From Ignavibacteriota bacterium (GTDB lineage: Bacteria > Bacteroidota > Ignavibacteria > Ignavibacteriales > Melioribacteraceae): a stretch of 64,000 bases of DNA. The DNA lies in assembly GCA_013112585.1 (NCBI GenBank), contig JABFGH010000003.1, forward strand, positions 62,001 to 126,000. Direction: 5' to 3'. The notes below the pieces were generated by a model, which saw nothing but the letters and a program-made list of their open reading frames with translations, was not told the DNA's origin and did no database searches. The translations under genes and the position numbers were made by a program. Below, one piece after another: positions 21,380 to 42,262 of this stretch (positions are counted from its first letter, which is position 1; each line of letters starts with the position of its first letter).

Positions 21380-23230
21380 ATGAAATTAAAAATTAAAAAT
21401 ATTGTGAGCGTTGTTTTAATCGGATGGTTAATCGGTTCGGTTAATTTATCGGCGCAAGAATTTAAGGCTAGTGTTGATAAAACAACTGTCGGGCAAAATG
21501 AAAAGTTTAAAGTTTATTTTGAATTTTCCGGCGGCGATTATAACAAAGTTAAAAATTTTAGAGCGCCGAGTTTTGAAGGCTTAAAAGTATTAGGCGGACC
21601 AAATCAGTCAACAAGCATGCAGTTTATTAATGGCAAAATGTCAGCTTCGGTAACTTACTCTTATATTCTGGCAAGTTCAAAAATTGGCAAGTTTAAAATT
21701 GAGCCGGCTTCAATCTATTTTGAAGATAAAGTTTTAAGTTCAAAACCAATTACAATTGAAGTGACAAAAGCAGCGGGAAAAATTTCCAACGGCAATACCA
21801 CCGGGGGAATTTCCAACGAAGAGTTAGCAAAAAATGTTTTTATTAGAGCAATACCAAGTAAAACAAATGTTTATCAAGGCGAACAAGTAACCGTTACTTA
21901 TAAACTATATACAAAACTAAATATTTCATCCCCGCAAATTAATAAGCTGCCAGCAAACGAAGGTTTTTGGGCGGAGGATTTAGAGACCTCGAACAATATT
22001 TCATTTAATATTGAAATGTATAACGGCGAAAGATTTAGAGCCGCAGAAATTAAACGAGTGGCACTCTTCCCAACTAAATCGGGCAAACTAACCGTGTCTC
22101 CTTTTGAATTAAAGGTGCCGGTGATAATTAAAAAGAGAAGGAGCAGCAGAGATATTTTTGATGACTTTTTTAACGATTCTTTTTTCGGCTCCGAAACAAT
22201 TGAGTTTGTCGCTACATCAAACACAATAAATATAAATGTTAAGGCACTGCCCAAAACCAATGTGCCGGCTACTTTTAAAGGTGCGGTTGGTGAATTTGAT
22301 TTTTCCGCAACCCTTGATAAGGCTGATGTAGAGTTAAATGAAGCCATCACTTTTACGGTAAAGGTTAGCGGAAAAGGAAACATTCAGCTTATAAGCGTGC
22401 CCGAAGTTGACTTACCCAACGGCTTTGAAAAGTATGATCCTAAATCATCAAAAAATATTTCTAGAAAAAACATTGTAAGTGGAAACAAAACTGTTGAATA
22501 CCTTGCTATTGCTCGAATTCCCGGAGTAAAAGAAATTCCGCCGGTAGAATTTTCTTACTTTGATCCCTCAAGAAAACGATACGTTACAAAAAGATCATCC
22601 CCCTTTACTATTGATGTAAAAAAAGGTGCAGGCGGATTTGAAAATAATGTCAGCAGTTTTTCGAAAGAGGATATCAAACTTTTAAGCGAGGATATCAGGT
22701 TCATTAAAACATCCAATTTTGATTTGAGAAAAAAAGGTGAGTTTAAGGTAATTGCAAGCTGGTTCTGGATATTTACAATCGCCCCGCTTTTAATTTTACT
22801 TGTTACACTTGGTGTAAAAAAACGCCAGGATAAATTAACCGGCAATATTCAATTATCCAAGTATCGTAAGGCTGAAAAGGCTGCAAGAGGTAAACTTAAA
22901 ATAGCTAAGAAAGCATATGATGCAGGGGATAAACCGAAATTTTATGAAGAAACTTCAAAGGCTGTTTTCGGGTATCTTGAAGATAAATTGAATATTCAAA
23001 AATCGGAGTTTACCCAGGAACGGGCAATTTCAGAATTGCTGAATCAAGGCATTGCTGATGAATTGGTTTCTAGAGTAAAATCAATTTCTGAAAAATGCGA
23101 GTTTGCACGCTTTGCTCCAAAAGCGGAAAATAGTCACGCAGAAAAAAACATGTATGACGAAGCACTTAGTGTTATTATTGAATTGGAAAACTCATTGATA
23201 GGAACGAAAAAAGTAAAAAGTAAAAAGTGA
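21380..23230 (+). CDS. batD: BatD family protein
   Basis: 616 residues from ATG at 21380. A TTG at 21350 would extend the frame by 10 residues, but the signal peptide (LKIKNIVSVVLIGWLIGSVN to LSAQ) fits the ATG better. The body is a large beta-rich periplasmic region matching the BatD/oxygen-tolerance family (FKASVDKTTVGQNEKFKVY, VTYSYILASSKIGKFKIEPA). A transmembrane helix near 470-490 (WFWIFTIAPLLILLVTLGV) is followed by a cytoplasmic helical tail. Residues around 265-280 (KKRRSSRDIFDDFFND) are unusually charged. Confidence 0.9.
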   Translation: MKLKIKNIVSVVLIGWLIGSVNLSAQEFKASVDKTTVGQNEKFKVYFEFSGGDYNKVKNFRAPSFEGLKVLGGPNQSTSMQFINGKMSASVTYSYILASSKIGKFKIEPASIYFEDKVLSSKPITIEVTKAAGKISNGNTTGGISNEELAKNVFIRAIPSKTNVYQGEQVTVTYKLYTKLNISSPQINKLPANEGFWAEDLETSNNISFNIEMYNGERFRAAEIKRVALFPTKSGKLTVSPFELKVPVIIKKRRSSRDIFDDFFNDSFFGSETIEFVATSNTININVKALPKTNVPATFKGAVGEFDFSATLDKADVELNEAITFTVKVSGKGNIQLISVPEVDLPNGFEKYDPKSSKNISRKNIVSGNKTVEYLAIARIPGVKEIPPVEFSYFDPSRKRYVTKRSSPFTIDVKKGAGGFENNVSSFSKEDIKLLSEDIRFIKTSNFDLRKKGEFKVIASWFWIFTIAPLLILLVTLGVKKRQDKLTGNIQLSKYRKAEKAARGKLKIAKKAYDAGDKPKFYEETSKAVFGYLEDKLNIQKSEFTQERAISELLNQGIADELVSRVKSISEKCEFARFAPKAENSHAEKNMYDEALSVIIELENSLIGTKKVKSKK

Positions 23231-23270
23231 AAAGGAAAAAGTAAAAAGGAAAAATTAAAGAAAAGAGAGA

Positions 23271-24029: not shown

Positions 24030-24660
24030 CAACTGGATACTGGGTGCTGGATTCTGGATTCTTGATTCTTGAATCTGCTTTCTTTGCGTCTCGGCGGCTT
24101 TGCGTGATTAGTTGTGTTTGAATTCACTTCTTGAAATATCATTGCAAGCCAAGCCGCTAATTTGTTTTAACTGGTTTTTAAGTTTTTTCTACTGGCTTCT
24201 GACTACTGGCTTCTGGCTTCTGGTTTTTGTGTCTTTATTAAAAATTTTTGCTTTCTTTGCGTCCTTGCGGCTTTGCGTGAAGAAGCTTTTTACCAATATT
24301 CGTAAAACCGGTTCATCTCAATTCTACCGGCAGTGCTTGATTCTGGATACTTGATTCTTGATGCTGGATTCTGGATTCCCGCCAGAAAGACAGCGGGCAG
24401 GCTGGTTACTGGATGCTGGCTCCTGGTTTAATCTACCGATTCTAATAATTTATTTCCTTTGCGTCTGCGCCTTTGCATTATATGTTGTTTCTGTATTCAC
24501 TTCTTGAAAAAACATTGCACGCTAAGTCGCCAAGCCGCTAAGTTGTTTCTACTGTTATTAAATCTTTTCTCCTATATTCTGACTACTGACTACTGACTAC
24601 TGACTACTGAATTCTTTTTTTTGCCCCCCCCTTTTTTCTTTCAAAAAAAATGATATCTTG
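24030..24660. repeat. Repeat-rich non-coding stretch after the Bat operon
   Basis: No credible gene. Three kinds of repeat alternate. One is CTGGATACTGG/CTGGATTCTTGATTC-like tandem units (24031-24075, 24340-24380, 24405-24425). The second is CTTTGCGTC...GGCTTTGCGTGA blocks (24083-24105, 24249-24283, partial at 24460-24480) plus the matching CACGCTAAG...CCGCTAAG type (24510-24545). The third is (GACTACT)n at 24581-24611. A CCCGC/GCGGG stem lies near 24378-24396. Similar CTTTGCG blocks recur at 30700-30750 and 30950-31005. Confidence 0.7.
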
Positions 24661-36180: not shown

Positions 36181-36993
36181 ATGAAAAACAAAATTGCAGT
36201 ACTTGGCTGCGGAAATATAGGCGGTGCAATTGCACGCGGATTAGTAAAATCGAAAAAATATTCATCAAAAAATATTTCTTTAACAAGAAGACAAGAACCA
36301 GCCTTGAAGAAATGGGATGAACTAGGTTATAATGTTACAACTGATAATAAAGCCGCTGTAAAAGAAAGCGGAATAATAATAATTGCTGTTACACCTCAGC
36401 AGCTAAACGGCTTGCTGGAAGAAATTGCCCCCGCTCTCAATCCGAAAAAACACATTATTTACTCAATCGTTTCGGGTGCTTCGGTTAAGCAGATAAAATC
36501 TCACATTAGTAAAAATGTTCCGGTAGTTAGAGTTATGCCGAATACGGCAATCGCAATTCAAGAATCAATGACATGCATAAGCGCCGATGATGAAGATAGA
36601 AAAGCAATGGATTTAGCGGTACAGATTTTTGATAATCTTGGCAAAACAATTGTGATACAGGAAGAGTTGATGGTGCCTGCCACTGCTTTGTGCGCCTGCG
36701 GTATTGCGTTTTTCCTTCGCTCAGTCCGTGCAGCCTCGCAAGGGGGAATTGAAATCGGATTCCATTCAAGCGATGCACTCTTTATGGCATCACAAACTGC
36801 AAAGGGTGCGGCGGCAATGCTTCTCGCTGAAGGCGATCATCCTGAAAATGAAGTAGATAAAGTAACCACTCCGCAGGGATGCACAATTTCCGGCTTAAAC
36901 CAAATGGAGCATTCGGGATTCAGTTCATCAATGATTCGCGGTATTGTCACTTCAGCGGAAAAGGCGAGAACTTTATATTCGAACGATGAATAA
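36181..36993 (+). CDS. proC: Pyrroline-5-carboxylate reductase
   Basis: 270 residues catalysing the NAD(P)H-dependent reduction of pyrroline-5-carboxylate to proline. The dinucleotide motif is AVLGCGNIGGAIARG, followed by ITLTRR-like SLTRRQEPA, AVTPQQL, IVSGASVKQIK, RVMPNTAIAI and the C-terminal signature VTTPQGCTISGLNQMEHSGF. Length is normal. AGGAG lies upstream of the ATG. The stop overlaps the start of the MATE gene (ATG at 36986). Confidence 0.96.
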   Translation: MKNKIAVLGCGNIGGAIARGLVKSKKYSSKNISLTRRQEPALKKWDELGYNVTTDNKAAVKESGIIIIAVTPQQLNGLLEEIAPALNPKKHIIYSIVSGASVKQIKSHISKNVPVVRVMPNTAIAIQESMTCISADDEDRKAMDLAVQIFDNLGKTIVIQEELMVPATALCACGIAFFLRSVRAASQGGIEIGFHSSDALFMASQTAKGAAAMLLAEGDHPENEVDKVTTPQGCTISGLNQMEHSGFSSSMIRGIVTSAEKARTLYSNDE

Positions 36994-38281
36994 AAGAATA
37001 CTTCGTCTTGCAATACCAAATATATTAAGCAATCTCTCTATTCCGCTTCTCAGCTCGGTGGATACTATTGTTGTCGGGCATCTCGATAATGCAGCATACC
37101 TGGGTGCTATTGCTGTCGGTTCAATGATATTTAATTTCCTCTACATGGGTATGGGCTTTTTGCGCATGGGCACAACAGGCTTAACTGCCCAGGCAAACGG
37201 AAGCAAAAACGAAGAGGAAACAATTCTAGTTCTCGGCAGGGCAATTTCAGTTGCTTTAGCATCTGCGGTTATATTCCTGCTTGCTCAAGTGCTAATTGCC
37301 TCAGTTAGTTTTGCAATTGTAAAAGGCAGCGCAGAGGTTGAATTATTTGCGAGTGAATATTTTTTCATTAGAATTTGGGCTGCACCGGCAACACTTTCGC
37401 TTTATGCTTTTCATGGCTGGTTTTTGGGAATGCAGAATGCAAAGTATCCGCTATACTTATCACTATTTGTAAATATTGCAAATATCATATTCAACTTGGT
37501 TTTTATTTATCAATTCGGAATGGCATCGGATGGTGTTGCACTTGGAACTGTCATTGCTCAGTATCTCGGGTTGCTGCTTGCAATATTTTTGTTTCTATAT
37601 AAGTACAAGTATTACCTAAAGCATATCATAGTTAAAAAAATAATTGAGTTACAGCCGCTCAAAAAATTCTTTCAAATAAATTTAGATATACTGATAAGAA
37701 CCCTTGCATTAATTTTTGCGTTCAGTTTTTTTACCGCGAAATCTGCCGAGTTTGGAGAGCATATTTTAGCAGCAAATACAATTCTAATAAATCTGTGGAT
37801 GATAATCGCTTATGGTGTTGACGGATTTGCTTACGCGGCGGAAAGTTTGGTCGGCAATTTTATCGGCGCAAAAGATAATCAAAAATTAAGAAAGGTGATT
37901 CGGTACTCATTCTATTGGGGTTTAGGGATGGCAGCAGTTTTGTCACTAATTTATTGGATTGGCAGCGATCATATTGTTAAACTTTTCACTAATAATAAAG
38001 CTGTAATTTTAATTGGACTCCAATTTTATACCTGGACAATTTTTGCACCGTTGATAAATAGTTTTTGTTTTATATGGGATGGAATTTACATCGGTGCGAC
38101 AGCAACAAAACCAATGCGTAATTCTCTTCTCTTCAGCACACTGATTGTTTTTCTTCCCACATTTTATTTAACAAATGACATCATCGGTAATCATAGTCTG
38201 TGGCTTGCAATGACTTTGTTTATGGTTGCACGCGGGGCTGCACTTTTTATTTATTCGAAGAAATATATTTATAGGTGGTAA
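36986..38281 (+). CDS. MATE family efflux transporter
   Basis: 431 residues from ATG at 36986 (MNKRILRLAIPNILSNLSIP), overlapping the proC stop by eight bases; a longer upstream frame lies inside proC and is unlikely. About 12 hydrophobic helices. MatE motifs include PLLSSVDTIVVGHL and GAIAVGSMIFNFLYMG, with a duplicated second half beginning IRTLALIFAFSFF. This DinF-like branch exports cationic drugs or metabolites by Na+ or H+ antiport (family knowledge). Coupling with proC may be only positional. Confidence 0.93.
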   Translation: MNKRILRLAIPNILSNLSIPLLSSVDTIVVGHLDNAAYLGAIAVGSMIFNFLYMGMGFLRMGTTGLTAQANGSKNEEETILVLGRAISVALASAVIFLLAQVLIASVSFAIVKGSAEVELFASEYFFIRIWAAPATLSLYAFHGWFLGMQNAKYPLYLSLFVNIANIIFNLVFIYQFGMASDGVALGTVIAQYLGLLLAIFLFLYKYKYYLKHIIVKKIIELQPLKKFFQINLDILIRTLALIFAFSFFTAKSAEFGEHILAANTILINLWMIIAYGVDGFAYAAESLVGNFIGAKDNQKLRKVIRYSFYWGLGMAAVLSLIYWIGSDHIVKLFTNNKAVILIGLQFYTWTIFAPLINSFCFIWDGIYIGATATKPMRNSLLFSTLIVFLPTFYLTNDIIGNHSLWLAMTLFMVARGAALFIYSKKYIYRW

Positions 38282-38294
38282 GCCGGTGACCGGG

Positions 38295-38830
38295 GCTTCG
38301 ATACATTCCGCATTCGCGGAATTACTCAGCCAACTATCAAGTGTGAGAAAGTACGGTTATCGAGTAGCTCCGTTGTTTGGAGTGTATCGAGATATGCCGG
38401 GGCTTCGATACGTTCCGCTTTGCGGAACACTCAGCGACCTATCGTGAAGAGGAATTTGCGGTTATCGAGTAGCGCCGTTGTTTGGTGCGTATCGAGATAT
38501 GCCCGGTTGCTTCGATATATCTCGCTCTCGTGAGATTACTCAGCCACCTTGGATGCAGAAAATGTAAGGTTATCGAGTAGCCCCGATTTATGGGGTGTAT
38601 CGCCCATGCCGGTTGCTTCGATACATTTCGCTTCGCGGAAATACTCAGCCACCTTGGATGCAGAAAATGTAAGGTTATCGAGTAGCCCCGATTTATGGGG
38701 CGTATTGCCCATGCCGGTTGCTTCGATATATCTCGCTCTCGCGAGATTACTCAGCCACCTTGGATGCAGAAAATGTAAGGTTATCGAGTAGCCCCGATTT
38801 ATGGGGCGTATCGAGATACCGGCAGGAATA
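38295..38830. repeat. Five tandem copies of a 105-107 base palindrome-bearing unit
   Basis: GCTTCGATA starts at 38295, 38402, 38509, 38615 and 38720 (steps 107, 107, 106, 105). Each unit has a first variable stem after GATA (TTCCGC/GCGGAA, GTTCCGC/GCGGAAC, ATCTCG/CGAGAT and so on), then ACTCAGCCA, GGTTATCGAGTAGC, and a second variable stem (CTCC/GGAG, CGCC/GGTG, CCCC/GGGG) followed by GTATCGAGATA or a variant. Copies 3-5 are nearly identical around CCTTGGATGCAGAAAATGTA. Both stems change on both arms together. No gene is present in 38282-38932. Confidence 0.9.
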
Positions 38831-38932
38831 ACGTTAAGCGGCAATCCCTTTTTCACTTTAATTAAATTTTAACTATTTTGTTTTCCAGCAATTATTTAAG
38901 TTTTATATACAACCACAAAACCGGTAAAAACA

Positions 38933-41626
38933 ATGAGAAAAATTTATACGATCATTCTGCTGCTGACTTTAGTATCAGCAGTATTTGGTGAAAACTACAA
39001 ACAAGTAAAAATATTTATTGATAATTCCGAACAGATTAACACACTGCTTGAACAAGGCTTGGAGTTTGATCATTTAACGATTGAAAAAGATAATTCTATT
39101 ATTACTTTTATCTCAGATTCAGATTTTGAAAAATTAAAAATGATGCAGTTCAGATATGAAATTATTATTGATGATTGGAATGATTATTATGCTAAGCTTC
39201 CAACATTAAGTGCCGAAAGCAAAAGTGAAATTATTAAAGAGAGTAAAGAAAATTTTGGTGTCGAAGGATTAACTTTCGGTTCTATGGGAGGCTTTTATAC
39301 CTTTGCTGAAATTACTGCAAATCTCGATTCAATGTTTGCAAATTATCCTAATCTTATTACACAAAAATATTCAATTGGTACCTCGCACGAAGGAAGAACG
39401 ATTTGGGCTGTTAAAATTTCCGACAATCCGAATGTGGCTGAAGATGAGCCGCAAGTATTGTTTGAATCTTTAATTCATGCCCGCGAACCTGCATCGATGG
39501 CGACACTGTTTTATTATATGTACTACCTTTTAGAAAATTATGGAACTGATCCCGAAGTAACTTACCTGGTAAATAATAGAGAAATATTTTTTGTGCCCTG
39601 TTTTAATCCCGATGGTTATGAGTATAACAGAGCTAACAGTCCGGGCGGCGGCGGAATGTGGCGTAAGAACAGGCGCAACAGCGGCGGCGGAGATTACGGA
39701 GTTGACCTAAATCGAAACTTCGGTTATGAATGGGGACACGATAATATAGGTTCAAGTCCAGATCCTTCCAGCGAAATTTACCGCGGTCCATCTGCTTTTT
39801 CTGAACCGGAATCTCAAACAATTCGTGATTTTATTCTTTCCAAAAATATTAAAACGCATATTAACTACCATTCATACGGCAATGTTATGATTTATCCATG
39901 GGGTTATACAGATGAGCAGACACCCGATTCAAATATTTATAATAGCTTTACTGCCGATATGAGTGTTTGGAATGGCTATGGCTACGGAAACAGTACTAAT
40001 ACAATCGGCTATCAATCAAATGGAACTGTGCGTGATTGGAGTTACGGCGAGCAAACAGTAAAGAATAAAATTTTCGGATATGTCTTTGAAGTCGGAGCTT
40101 CATCAGATGGTTTCTGGCCAAGTCAAAGTAGAATCTTTCCGCTGGCTCAAGGAAATCTTCGTCCAAATTTATACAAAACCTGGGTTGCAGGCGGTTATGC
40201 GGGAATAATCGGCATATCAGCAAATGTTGAACACTACAACCCTGGTGATGATGTTTTTCTTACACCGATTGTAAAAAACAAGGGATTGGGCGATGCAGAA
40301 AATTTAACTATTGAGCTGATTAGTTTGAGTCCCGATGTAACAGTGGTTACTGGTACTACAAATTTAACATCAATTCCATCATTAACTGCCGATACCTCTG
40401 CTGCACCGGTAGAAATATCAATATCCGGGTCTGCTGCAATAGGCAGTGAAGTTCAATTAGTTTGGAGTGTTACTTCAAACTCTGTTTTAATGAGTGTTGA
40501 TACGACAACAATTAGAATTGGAACACCGGTTTATTTATTTGAAGATAATAGTGATGACCCCGCAGTGCTTTGGAATTTAACAGGAACGCAAACATGGGAA
40601 GCAACAACATCATCATTTTATTCAGCACCAAACTCATACACTGAAAGTAGGCTTGGTAATTACAGCAGCAATGCAAATGTTAAAATGACTTTAAAAGACG
40701 CAATTGATTTAACCTCGGCTGATTCACCGGTTTTAACTTTCTGGACAAAATATTTTATTGAAGATAACTGGGATTGCGGACAGGTTTTTATTTCAACAAA
40801 TGGGGGCAGCACATGGATACCGCAAGAAGGAAATTTCACAGTTGCCGGTTCGGGTAATGGTACACAAGCTAACGGTCAGCCTGTTTATGAAGGTACACAA
40901 TCAAATTGGGCTCATGAAGAAATTGATTTATCGGCTTATGTTGGTCAGCAAATTTTAATAAGATTTGAGTTTAAGTCTGATACTTCTGTTCAAGAGGACG
41001 GCTGGTATGTTGATGATATTAAAATTTATTTTTACGGAGTAGTTCCCGTTGAATTGATCTCCTTCAATGCATCAGTAGAAAATTTATCTGTAAATCTTAA
41101 CTGGAAAACAGCAAGTGAATTAAATAACTATGGATTCAGAATTGAGAGATGTGAAAAGTCAAACGTGAAAAGTGAAAAGTGGGAAACGATTGCTTTTGTT
41201 GATGGAAGAGGCACAACTGCTGAGATTCAAAGCTACGATTACACAGATGCAACACCAATCCGGGGTAAATCCATTTACAGATTAACTCAAATTGATTTTG
41301 ACGGAACAGAGAAAATTATTGCAACCGAAGAAGTAAATTTTGTAGGAAATATTACGTATAACTTGGAGCAAAATTATCCAAATCCTTTCAATCCCTCAAC
41401 AAAAATTAAATATTCCGTTAAGAAAGACGCGCAAGTTAAACTTACACTTTACAATTTGATGGGGGAAGTTGTAGGCGTTTTAATAAACGAGCCGAAAGAA
41501 GCGGGGGAACATGAATTCATCTTTGATACTCAACAATTTTCGAATTCAATTTCTTCGGGAGTATATTTTTATACTCTAACAGCAGGTGAATATTCCGCAT
41601 CTCGTAAAATGATAATTTTGAAATAG
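38933..41626 (+). CDS. Secreted M14 zinc carboxypeptidase with T9SS sorting domain
   Basis: 897 residues with a signal peptide (KIYTIILLLTLVSAVFG), an N-terminal prodomain-like part (to about 105), and an M14 peptidase domain (about 110-420). Zinc ligands are His and Glu in LIHAREPAS (near 183), with the third His in NYHSYGNVMIYPWG near 311. The catalytic Glu is in FEVG near 386. Substrate-binding Arg occurs in GVDLNRNFGYEWG. Then follow a beta-rich region, a MAM-like domain (about 545-700, with SPVLTFWTKYFIEDNWDCGQ) and a T9SS type A domain (NYPNPFNPSTKIKY to RKMIILK). It should be an extracellular or surface peptidase. Confidence 0.93.
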   Translation: MRKIYTIILLLTLVSAVFGENYKQVKIFIDNSEQINTLLEQGLEFDHLTIEKDNSIITFISDSDFEKLKMMQFRYEIIIDDWNDYYAKLPTLSAESKSEIIKESKENFGVEGLTFGSMGGFYTFAEITANLDSMFANYPNLITQKYSIGTSHEGRTIWAVKISDNPNVAEDEPQVLFESLIHAREPASMATLFYYMYYLLENYGTDPEVTYLVNNREIFFVPCFNPDGYEYNRANSPGGGGMWRKNRRNSGGGDYGVDLNRNFGYEWGHDNIGSSPDPSSEIYRGPSAFSEPESQTIRDFILSKNIKTHINYHSYGNVMIYPWGYTDEQTPDSNIYNSFTADMSVWNGYGYGNSTNTIGYQSNGTVRDWSYGEQTVKNKIFGYVFEVGASSDGFWPSQSRIFPLAQGNLRPNLYKTWVAGGYAGIIGISANVEHYNPGDDVFLTPIVKNKGLGDAENLTIELISLSPDVTVVTGTTNLTSIPSLTADTSAAPVEISISGSAAIGSEVQLVWSVTSNSVLMSVDTTTIRIGTPVYLFEDNSDDPAVLWNLTGTQTWEATTSSFYSAPNSYTESRLGNYSSNANVKMTLKDAIDLTSADSPVLTFWTKYFIEDNWDCGQVFISTNGGSTWIPQEGNFTVAGSGNGTQANGQPVYEGTQSNWAHEEIDLSAYVGQQILIRFEFKSDTSVQEDGWYVDDIKIYFYGVVPVELISFNASVENLSVNLNWKTASELNNYGFRIERCEKSNVKSEKWETIAFVDGRGTTAEIQSYDYTDATPIRGKSIYRLTQIDFDGTEKIIATEEVNFVGNITYNLEQNYPNPFNPSTKIKYSVKKDAQVKLTLYNLMGEVVGVLINEPKEAGEHEFIFDTQQFSNSISSGVYFYTLTAGEYSASRKMIILK

Positions 41627-41780
41627 GAGTTAGGATTTAGGAGTTAGGAGCTAGGAGCTAGAAATCAGAATATAAAGCAATAACGAATTATGAATGCCGA
41701 ACTTTGAATATCGATTTAATCGAAGAATCGATAATCCCGCCTACCGGTACCATAGGTATCCTTTGGGACAGGCAGGTGGG
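41627..41780. repeat. TTAGGAG-type units and composite palindrome
   Basis: Directly after the peptidase stop, GGAGTTAGGATTTAGGAGTT and AGGAGCTAGGAGCTAG units run to about 41665. At 41706-41786 a composite palindrome has ATCGATT/AATCGAT outer parts, CCCGCCT...AGGTGGG arms and the inner GGTACCATAGGTATCC. Confidence 0.6.
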
Positions 41781-41939: not shown

Positions 41940-42165
41940 CACCCGCCTTCCGGCAGGCAGGTTTGTTATTTGTCATTTACCATTTGTCATTTGTTATTTG
42001 TCATTTACCATTTGTCATTTGTTATTTGTCATTTGTTATTTGTCATTTACCATTTGTCATTTGTTATTTGTCATTTACCATTTGTCATTTGTCATTTGTC
42101 ATTTGTTATTTTCTATTTGTTATTTGTTATTTGCTATTTGCTATTTGTTATTTGCTCTTTGTCAT
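41940..42165. repeat. TTTGTTATTTGTCATT array with GC-rich palindrome
   Basis: CACCCGCCTTCCGGCAGGCAGG (41940-41961) is the exact reverse complement of the 22 bases at 13070-13091. About 200 bases of TTTGTCATTTACCA/TTTGTTATTTG units follow. Open frames reading (ICHLLFVICYLSF)n are produced by the repeat itself and are not genes. Confidence 0.85.
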
Positions 42166-42262
42166 TTCCATTTGAACCTTGAACTCAAAGAATCTTCAAC
42201 TTAAGCCGTGAGCCTTTAATTTCCAATATCCATCAAACACTTGGATTAATCTTTAAAAACCC

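Follow-up and report, generated by a model that had tools for sequence, protein, structure and literature searches.

We found that the hairpin array at positions 38295–38814 of a 64,000-nucleotide stretch of Ignavibacteriota DNA (the window) is best classed as a variant form of REP/BIME array and not as a RAYT system. REPs, BIMEs, and REPINs are known repeat classes (PMC2817692, PMC3733652, PMC6006769). The array is probably a BIME-like cluster of REPIN type, one of a multi-phylum superfamily of REPs that flank, and are likely recognized or moved by, a GIY-YIG nuclease.

That the array of paired hairpins is a real feature was confirmed by Tandem Repeats Finder, which reported a repeat at 38295–38814 with a period of 105, 4.9 copies, 82% matches, and a score of 576. 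An earlier reading made from the letters alone (the sequence-only reading) had described five tandem units of about 106 bases with two hairpins apiece; this description held over 38295–38814, and the stem sequences that it quoted are found in the array. Each unit consists of two copies of one short element placed head-to-head in opposite orientation, and the whole array, to which no strand is assigned, is composed of five tandem REP doublets, as judged by its sequence, the tandem-repeat scan, and a pattern scan. The element reads GAGTA, a variable hairpin, and (G/A)TATCGA, with GAGTA...TATCGA as the fixed core that encloses the variable hairpin and another stem outside this core. On the minus strand, the pattern scan located the A-type REPs of unit 1 (38298–38327; core GAGTA...TATCGA, stem ATTCCGC/GCGGAAT), unit 2 (38405–38432; GAGTG variant, stem GTTCCGC/GCGGAAC), unit 3 (38512–38541; stem ATCTC/GAGAT), unit 5 (38723–38752; stem ATCTCGC/GCGAGAT), and, together with an alignment, unit 4 (38618–38646). 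The hairpin of the latter is unlike those of units 3 and 5: compared with 38512–38541 and 38723–38752, it is replaced wholesale, and the unit spacer is identical. On the plus strand, the same scan located the B-type REPs of unit 1 (38362–38390; stem GCTCC/GGAGT), unit 2 (38467–38495; stem GCGCC/GGTGC), unit 3 (38575–38603; stem GCCCC/GGGGT, 3' core TATCGC), and unit 5 (38786–38814; stem GCCCC/GGGGC); that of unit 4 (38680–38708; stem GCCCC/GGGGC) has an altered 3' core (TATTGC), was overlooked by the scan, and was read from the sequence. Head-to-head partners are 33–34 nucleotides apart and tail-to-tail neighbors 14–16 nucleotides apart; the array thus has the alternating orientation and regular spacing of a BIME. 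It begins just past the stop codon of a plus-strand open frame for a membrane protein (36944–38281), which resembles a MATE-type transporter, and is followed by a second plus-strand open frame (38933–41626), which we take to be carboxypeptidase-like with a C-terminal sorting tail.

The full array, used as the query, gave 17 matches in its own genome (the array itself counted), and the pattern GAGTAN{14,30}TATCGA occurred there 88 times compared with 33 times for the reversed pattern. When the window and 22 stretches of the genome were scanned, one of the 40 hairpin-positive copies lay inside a frame of at least 120 amino acids; the element is therefore a short palindrome with many extragenic copies, as is characteristic of a REP. 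We note that the REP at L063:3425–3458 lies within predicted frames of at least 120 amino acids on the opposite strand, which are possibly spurious. Among the titles listed in our literature searches, none was relevant to TATCGA palindromic repeats.

We examined the pairing of the stems in 57 matches picked by the two cores alone from the window and 22 stretches of its own genome, some of which are surely chance matches, counting G-T as paired and using 2000 shuffles of the 3' letters as the control. Outer-stem positions 1–3 were paired in 93, 91, and 95% of matches compared with 72, 68, and 61% after shuffling, position 4 in 63% compared with 39% (0 of 2000 shuffles as high at any of the four), and inner-stem positions 1–6 in 75–88% compared with 55–81% (0 to 9 of 2000 as high), although these shuffle tests overstate significance because the copies share descent. 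Position 5 of the outer stem showed no excess of pairing in the 57 matches (46% compared with 49%). The proposal that conservation lies in the pairing and not in the letters themselves was thus borne out in the core-selected matches, and the covariation analysis over genome copies that the sequence-only reading had called for was significant only once further copies had been added. Further, RNAalifold, when applied to 17 aligned doublets (the five of the window and twelve further head-to-head doublets from contigs C3, C11, C24, and C27 of the same genome), returned a four-arm consensus of 29 pairs, of which seven were changed on both sides. In the own-genome copies, the helices covary while the loop stays fixed, and each REP can be described as an outer stem enclosing the conserved internal loop GAG(TA).../...(GTA)TCGA, which in turn encloses an inner hairpin that varies.

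The sequence-only reading had also held that both arms change together between fixed linkers; the arms do covary, but the linkers are in part variable, with the middle spacer identical among units 3–5 (0 of 43 columns differ), whereas the spacers of units 1 and 2 differ from each other at 13 of 44 columns. Parts of the sequence that are fixed can pair with one another (TCGATA with TATCGA and TACTC with GAGTA), and, given the four-arm consensus, the "fixed linkers" therefore contain two more helices, TCGATA/TATCGA and TACTC/GAGTA. RNA folding gave a four-way junction in four of the five units, with unit 1 taking another fold, and with DNA energies the junction appeared in units 1, 3, and 5 and was absent in units 2 and 4. 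Compared with chance, DNA folding was strongest in unit 5 (z = −5.4), followed by units 1–3 (z = −2.2 to −2.9), and reached only z = −1.1 in unit 4. Units 3 and 4 differ at 7 of 18 hairpin columns and at 0 of 43 spacer columns, and two duplicated units on contig C11 (L049:3041–3262) differ at 9 of 18 hairpin columns and at 1 of 44 spacer columns. Entire hairpins seem, from these alignments, to have been exchanged within otherwise recent duplicates.

Judged by sequence, the REPs of the array belong to an apparent superfamily present in several phyla. In the flanks of core matches, the bases beyond the core also pair and covary (e.g. ggtgatt/aatcacc, ggttgtt/aacaacc, and gttc/gaac). Among the matches listed, the pattern of core plus outer stem occurred in one Gallionella as well as in Treponema, Actinomycetota, and Chloroflexota. 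Among 22 genomes from these matches, each of which was selected because it already had a pattern match, 18 contained 29–196 core matches compared with 0–8 control matches.

Among the matches listed, seven frames were flanked by the core on both sides, and two of these, from different phyla, were homologous to each other and GIY-YIG-like. A search of 27 genomes with the PF01541 profile gave 114 matches, of which 92 were inspected with their flanks. In 14 of the 27 genomes, two of them weak cases (G009 and G067), a standalone GIY-YIG gene lay no more than 500 bp from a hairpin with the core, of which one mismatch was tolerated; none of 19 long, UvrC-like GIY-YIG genes did so. In a tree of 69 standalone GIY-YIG proteins, which has few columns and many open forks, the flanked proteins cluster, with 5 label changes compared with 11.3 after shuffling (0 of 500 as low). 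The flanks of unflagged members of this subfamily, including the gene from the window's own genome, contain GAG...TCGA between paired outer arms. When we scanned for this generalized core (GAG...TCGA, outer stem at least 5 long) up to 300 bp from each gene, 20 of 25 subfamily genes were flanked, 12 of them on both sides, compared with 3 of 48 other standalone GIY-YIG genes, 0 of 19 long GIY-YIG genes, and 2 of 67 Y1 loci; ten altered cores were found beside 0 or 1 of the same 25 genes.

Because the list of 25 genes had been drawn up partly with the flanks already known, we repeated the test on genes outside that list. A search of 198 genomes of the phylum with a profile built from 16 proteins (A2) returned 30 loci, from which two already known (L390 and L396) were dropped. 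Of the remaining 28, which include a 930-amino acid frame unlike the others (L394), 18 were flanked by generalized-core REPs, 11 of them on both sides, and 12 altered cores flanked 0 or 1 of the 28. Low-scoring relatives from the same search, a control of 20 loci picked by hand, were flanked in two cases, neither on both sides (Fisher p = 2.5e-4). Degenerate REP forms, which were excluded from the count, can be seen on visual inspection at several of the 10 unflanked loci. In many genomes, then, genes of a UPF0213-related GIY-YIG subfamily are flanked by REPs on one or both sides.

In the 500-bp test, 9 of 18 core-rich genomes had a firmly flanked GIY-YIG gene, and the generalized-core scan added flanked genes in G065 and G073. 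G066 holds 106 core matches, yet its single GIY-YIG match is long and none is standalone, and in G058 and G078 the subfamily gene is present but unflanked. Across the phylum, the long core was enriched in 10 of 31 genomes with strong subfamily matches compared with 16 of 167 others (p = 0.002, or 0.005 without the window's own genome), with a cut-off chosen after the counts had been seen; the co-occurrence of long core and subfamily within the phylum is positive and modest. A plasmid search for the nuclease gave 47 records, every one under 60% identity, and viral GIY-YIG loci had a REP nearby in 2 of 52 cases. We note that two viral contigs that are identical here (L426 and L428) carry a REP-like GAG...TCGA hairpin (2448–2488) ~90 nucleotides behind the GIY-YIG match (2098–2358).

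In the REP-linked proteins, Tyr-7, Tyr-17, Gly-19, Arg-27, and Glu-65 are invariant (16 of 16 sequences). The associated gene thus has the Y...YxG motif and the catalytic Arg and Glu of the GIY-YIG family. Among solved sequences, the REP-linked profile matched at an E value of 0.01 only the UPF0213 GIY-YIG proteins with PDB entries 1zg2 (E = 1e-22) and 1ywl (E = 2.3e-17); the REP-linked set forms a subfamily, which typically contains EKQ(V/I)QGWSR. The subfamily gene of the window's own genome (PF01541, E = 1.9e-16; G000:C3:7232–7510) lies on the contig of the window, outside it, with GAG...TCGA REPs on both sides. These REPs are of a shorter subtype than those of the window, with 8 matches in the genome compared with 1 for the control, and the sequence strings of this subtype were absent from the publications searched. 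None of the 8 standalone GIY-YIG genes of the own genome has the REP subtype of the window beside it; what links the array to the nuclease is therefore the shared core, together with relatives of the same order, two of which (G052 and G055) have long GAGT.../GTATCGA REPs on both sides of the nuclease gene and a third (G056) on one side. The strict form of the generalized scan, which requires an outer stem at least 5 long, gave no match anywhere in the window; it misses even the array, whose outer stems are interrupted.

Both homing nucleases and structure-selective ones occur among GIY-YIG proteins, and the four-way junction of a head-to-head doublet would be a plausible substrate for a structure-selective member of the family. 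Most likely, the nuclease would recognize the folded REP, as a single-stranded hairpin or a cruciform, through the conserved loop and would cut the folded element or its target; repair or template-switch copying might then carry doublets to new intergenic sites and expand them there in tandem. The position of REPs next to nuclease genes suggests a way in which such repeats may spread, but the nuclease gene could also be a passenger. More tentatively, and with rather less than even confidence, we propose a second, independent class of REP-mobilizing system in bacteria, in which the GIY-YIG protein would read the folded internal loop, leaving the flanking helices free to vary, and would spread doublets over at least four phyla by cut-and-repair copying, swapping whole hairpins within units that are otherwise the same. 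If the nuclease subfamily does handle GAG/TCGA REPs, this would account for a repeat that is abundant in Actinomycetota, Chloroflexota, Treponema, and the group of the window, would give a number of small GIY-YIG genes a function, and would turn the spread of RAYT-less REPs into a question for a simple cleavage assay. No link between GIY-YIG proteins and REPs was found in the literature searched, which was covered mostly by title and excluded preprints and most subscription papers.

Presence and absence of REPs could be compared between NK4A124 and XBD1002, strains that both bear the name Treponema bryantii and that align over 8 kb in three pieces at 71–87% identity. One orthologous site contains a REP doublet in NK4A124 and is empty in XBD1002; movement of the doublet as one unit, as in a REPIN, may account for this one filled/empty site. 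A third REP-bearing region also differs between both strains. At another position (L191:2097–2230 compared with L486–L487), one strain has a REP doublet and the other an unrelated GTCATTGCGAG...GCAATC repeat; this repeat of XBD1002 looks CGTC-REP-like to us. In a Gordonia pair (L200/L214), stretches rich in repeats differed by indels, with no clean empty site.

Among the other explanations, the one that survives best, although we consider it unlikely, is that selection retains the REPs for a function of their own, be it in protecting mRNA 3' ends, in termination, in supercoiling, or in binding proteins, with the nuclease as a passenger or a domesticated cruciform repair factor. The REPs do lie mostly outside frames, the array is situated directly behind a gene, and the REP units fold in both RNA and DNA predictions. 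Supercoiling, termination, and mRNA stabilization are also among the roles hypothesized for REPs (PMC3733652). However, this explanation accounts neither for the flanking of one GIY-YIG subfamily across phyla, often on both sides, nor for the presence and absence of REPs between strains.

To our knowledge, RAYT is the enzyme known to accompany REPs, and the sequence-only reading had suggested that one be looked for. A classical REP/BIME mobilized by a RAYT (Y1, HUH), as in Gammaproteobacteria, with one of eight Y1_Tnp genes as its cognate or the cognate lost, is in our judgment improbable. The genome of the window does have eight PF01797 (Y1_Tnp) matches, and three of the six Y1 proteins scanned pass the NCBIfam cutoff for REP-associated tyrosine transposases. 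Further, the head-to-head and tail-to-tail dimers and heterodimers match the anatomy given for GTAG REPs (PMC3733652), and GTAG is contained in GAGTAG, the reading of the B-type copies and of most copies listed from other phyla. The unpaired GT(A/G)G foot is absent, however: A-type copies read GAGTAA, GAGTAT, or GAGTG, and the final G of GAGTAG in B-type copies is the first base, and hence part, of the stem. The search for Y1_Tnp genes covered the own genome, nine relatives, and 22 named-locus genomes, and the suggested link was found in neither the own genome, the relatives, nor the core-bearing genomes. The exact core occurs within ~1.5 kb at 4 of 30 Y1 loci of core-bearing genomes, none of which has the core directly on both sides, but within ~1.5 kb on each side of none of the eight own Y1 genes; two loci (L011 and L015) have a single one-mismatch core match apiece near the Y1 gene. 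The 2 of 67 Y1 loci near a generalized core have it on one side only (gene limits being approximated), and 13 of the 22 core-bearing genomes, one of them with 196 core matches, are without a PF01797 match. RAYT/Y1 is therefore a poor fit, given the absence of the exact core near the own Y1 genes and of Y1 genes from 13 of 22 genomes. Two own Y1 genes (L015 and L016) have palindromes of their own, of a different kind. We note that these RAYT-like genes (L015:1217–1901 and L016:1200–2039) lie between inverted palindromes of type TGTCGAGGACCATTCCTCGACA, a separate and ordinary-looking REPtron, and that an IS200-like Y1 gene (L010:950–2450) lies amid several different short repeated palindromes, e.g. 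AACTACGGAGTAGTT.

The REPs of the array share with RAYT-associated GTAG REPs, REPtrons, and REPINs the form of short intergenic multicopy hairpins, the inverted dimers and BIME-like arrays, the stems that vary with pairing kept, and an enzyme gene situated between REPs. They differ in that the fixed part is here an internal loop, two-sided and flanked by a stem at either end, and there a one-sided foot, that the gene here encodes a GIY-YIG nuclease and there a Y1 HUH transposase, and that the REPs here abound even where a genome has no Y1 match. For Bacteroidetes, RAYT subclasses whose hairpins are atypical have been described (PMC6006769), and CGTC-tagged REPs are hairpin repeats reported to lack an association with transposase genes (PMC3733652). 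The latter resemble the REPs of the array in not being tied to transposase genes but have another tag and no GAG/TCGA loop, and the CGTC tag is absent beside all ten array hairpins.

A search of positions 37800–39300 against Rfam gave nothing above the gathering score, the one match (E = 0.42) being below it and outside the array. That the array is a standalone structured RNA (a riboswitch or noncoding RNA array) is hardly credible: the four-arm consensus, with its doubly changed pairs, would suit such an RNA, but there is no Rfam family match, and the copies are found in either orientation, paired into doublets, and arranged in tandem. Of the interpretation that the sequence-only reading had favored, an undescribed structured element, the pairing and covariation thus stand, and an isolated new RNA does not, the array being REP/BIME; binding hairpins and copying based on single-stranded DNA, which it had named beside it, were sound as options. 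Elsewhere in the window, arrays of 7-base repeats that are unrelated to the REP array occur at 23208–23259, 24579–24610, 41624–41661, and 41962–42167; the longest consists of 29 copies of TTTGTCA, and open frames run across it.
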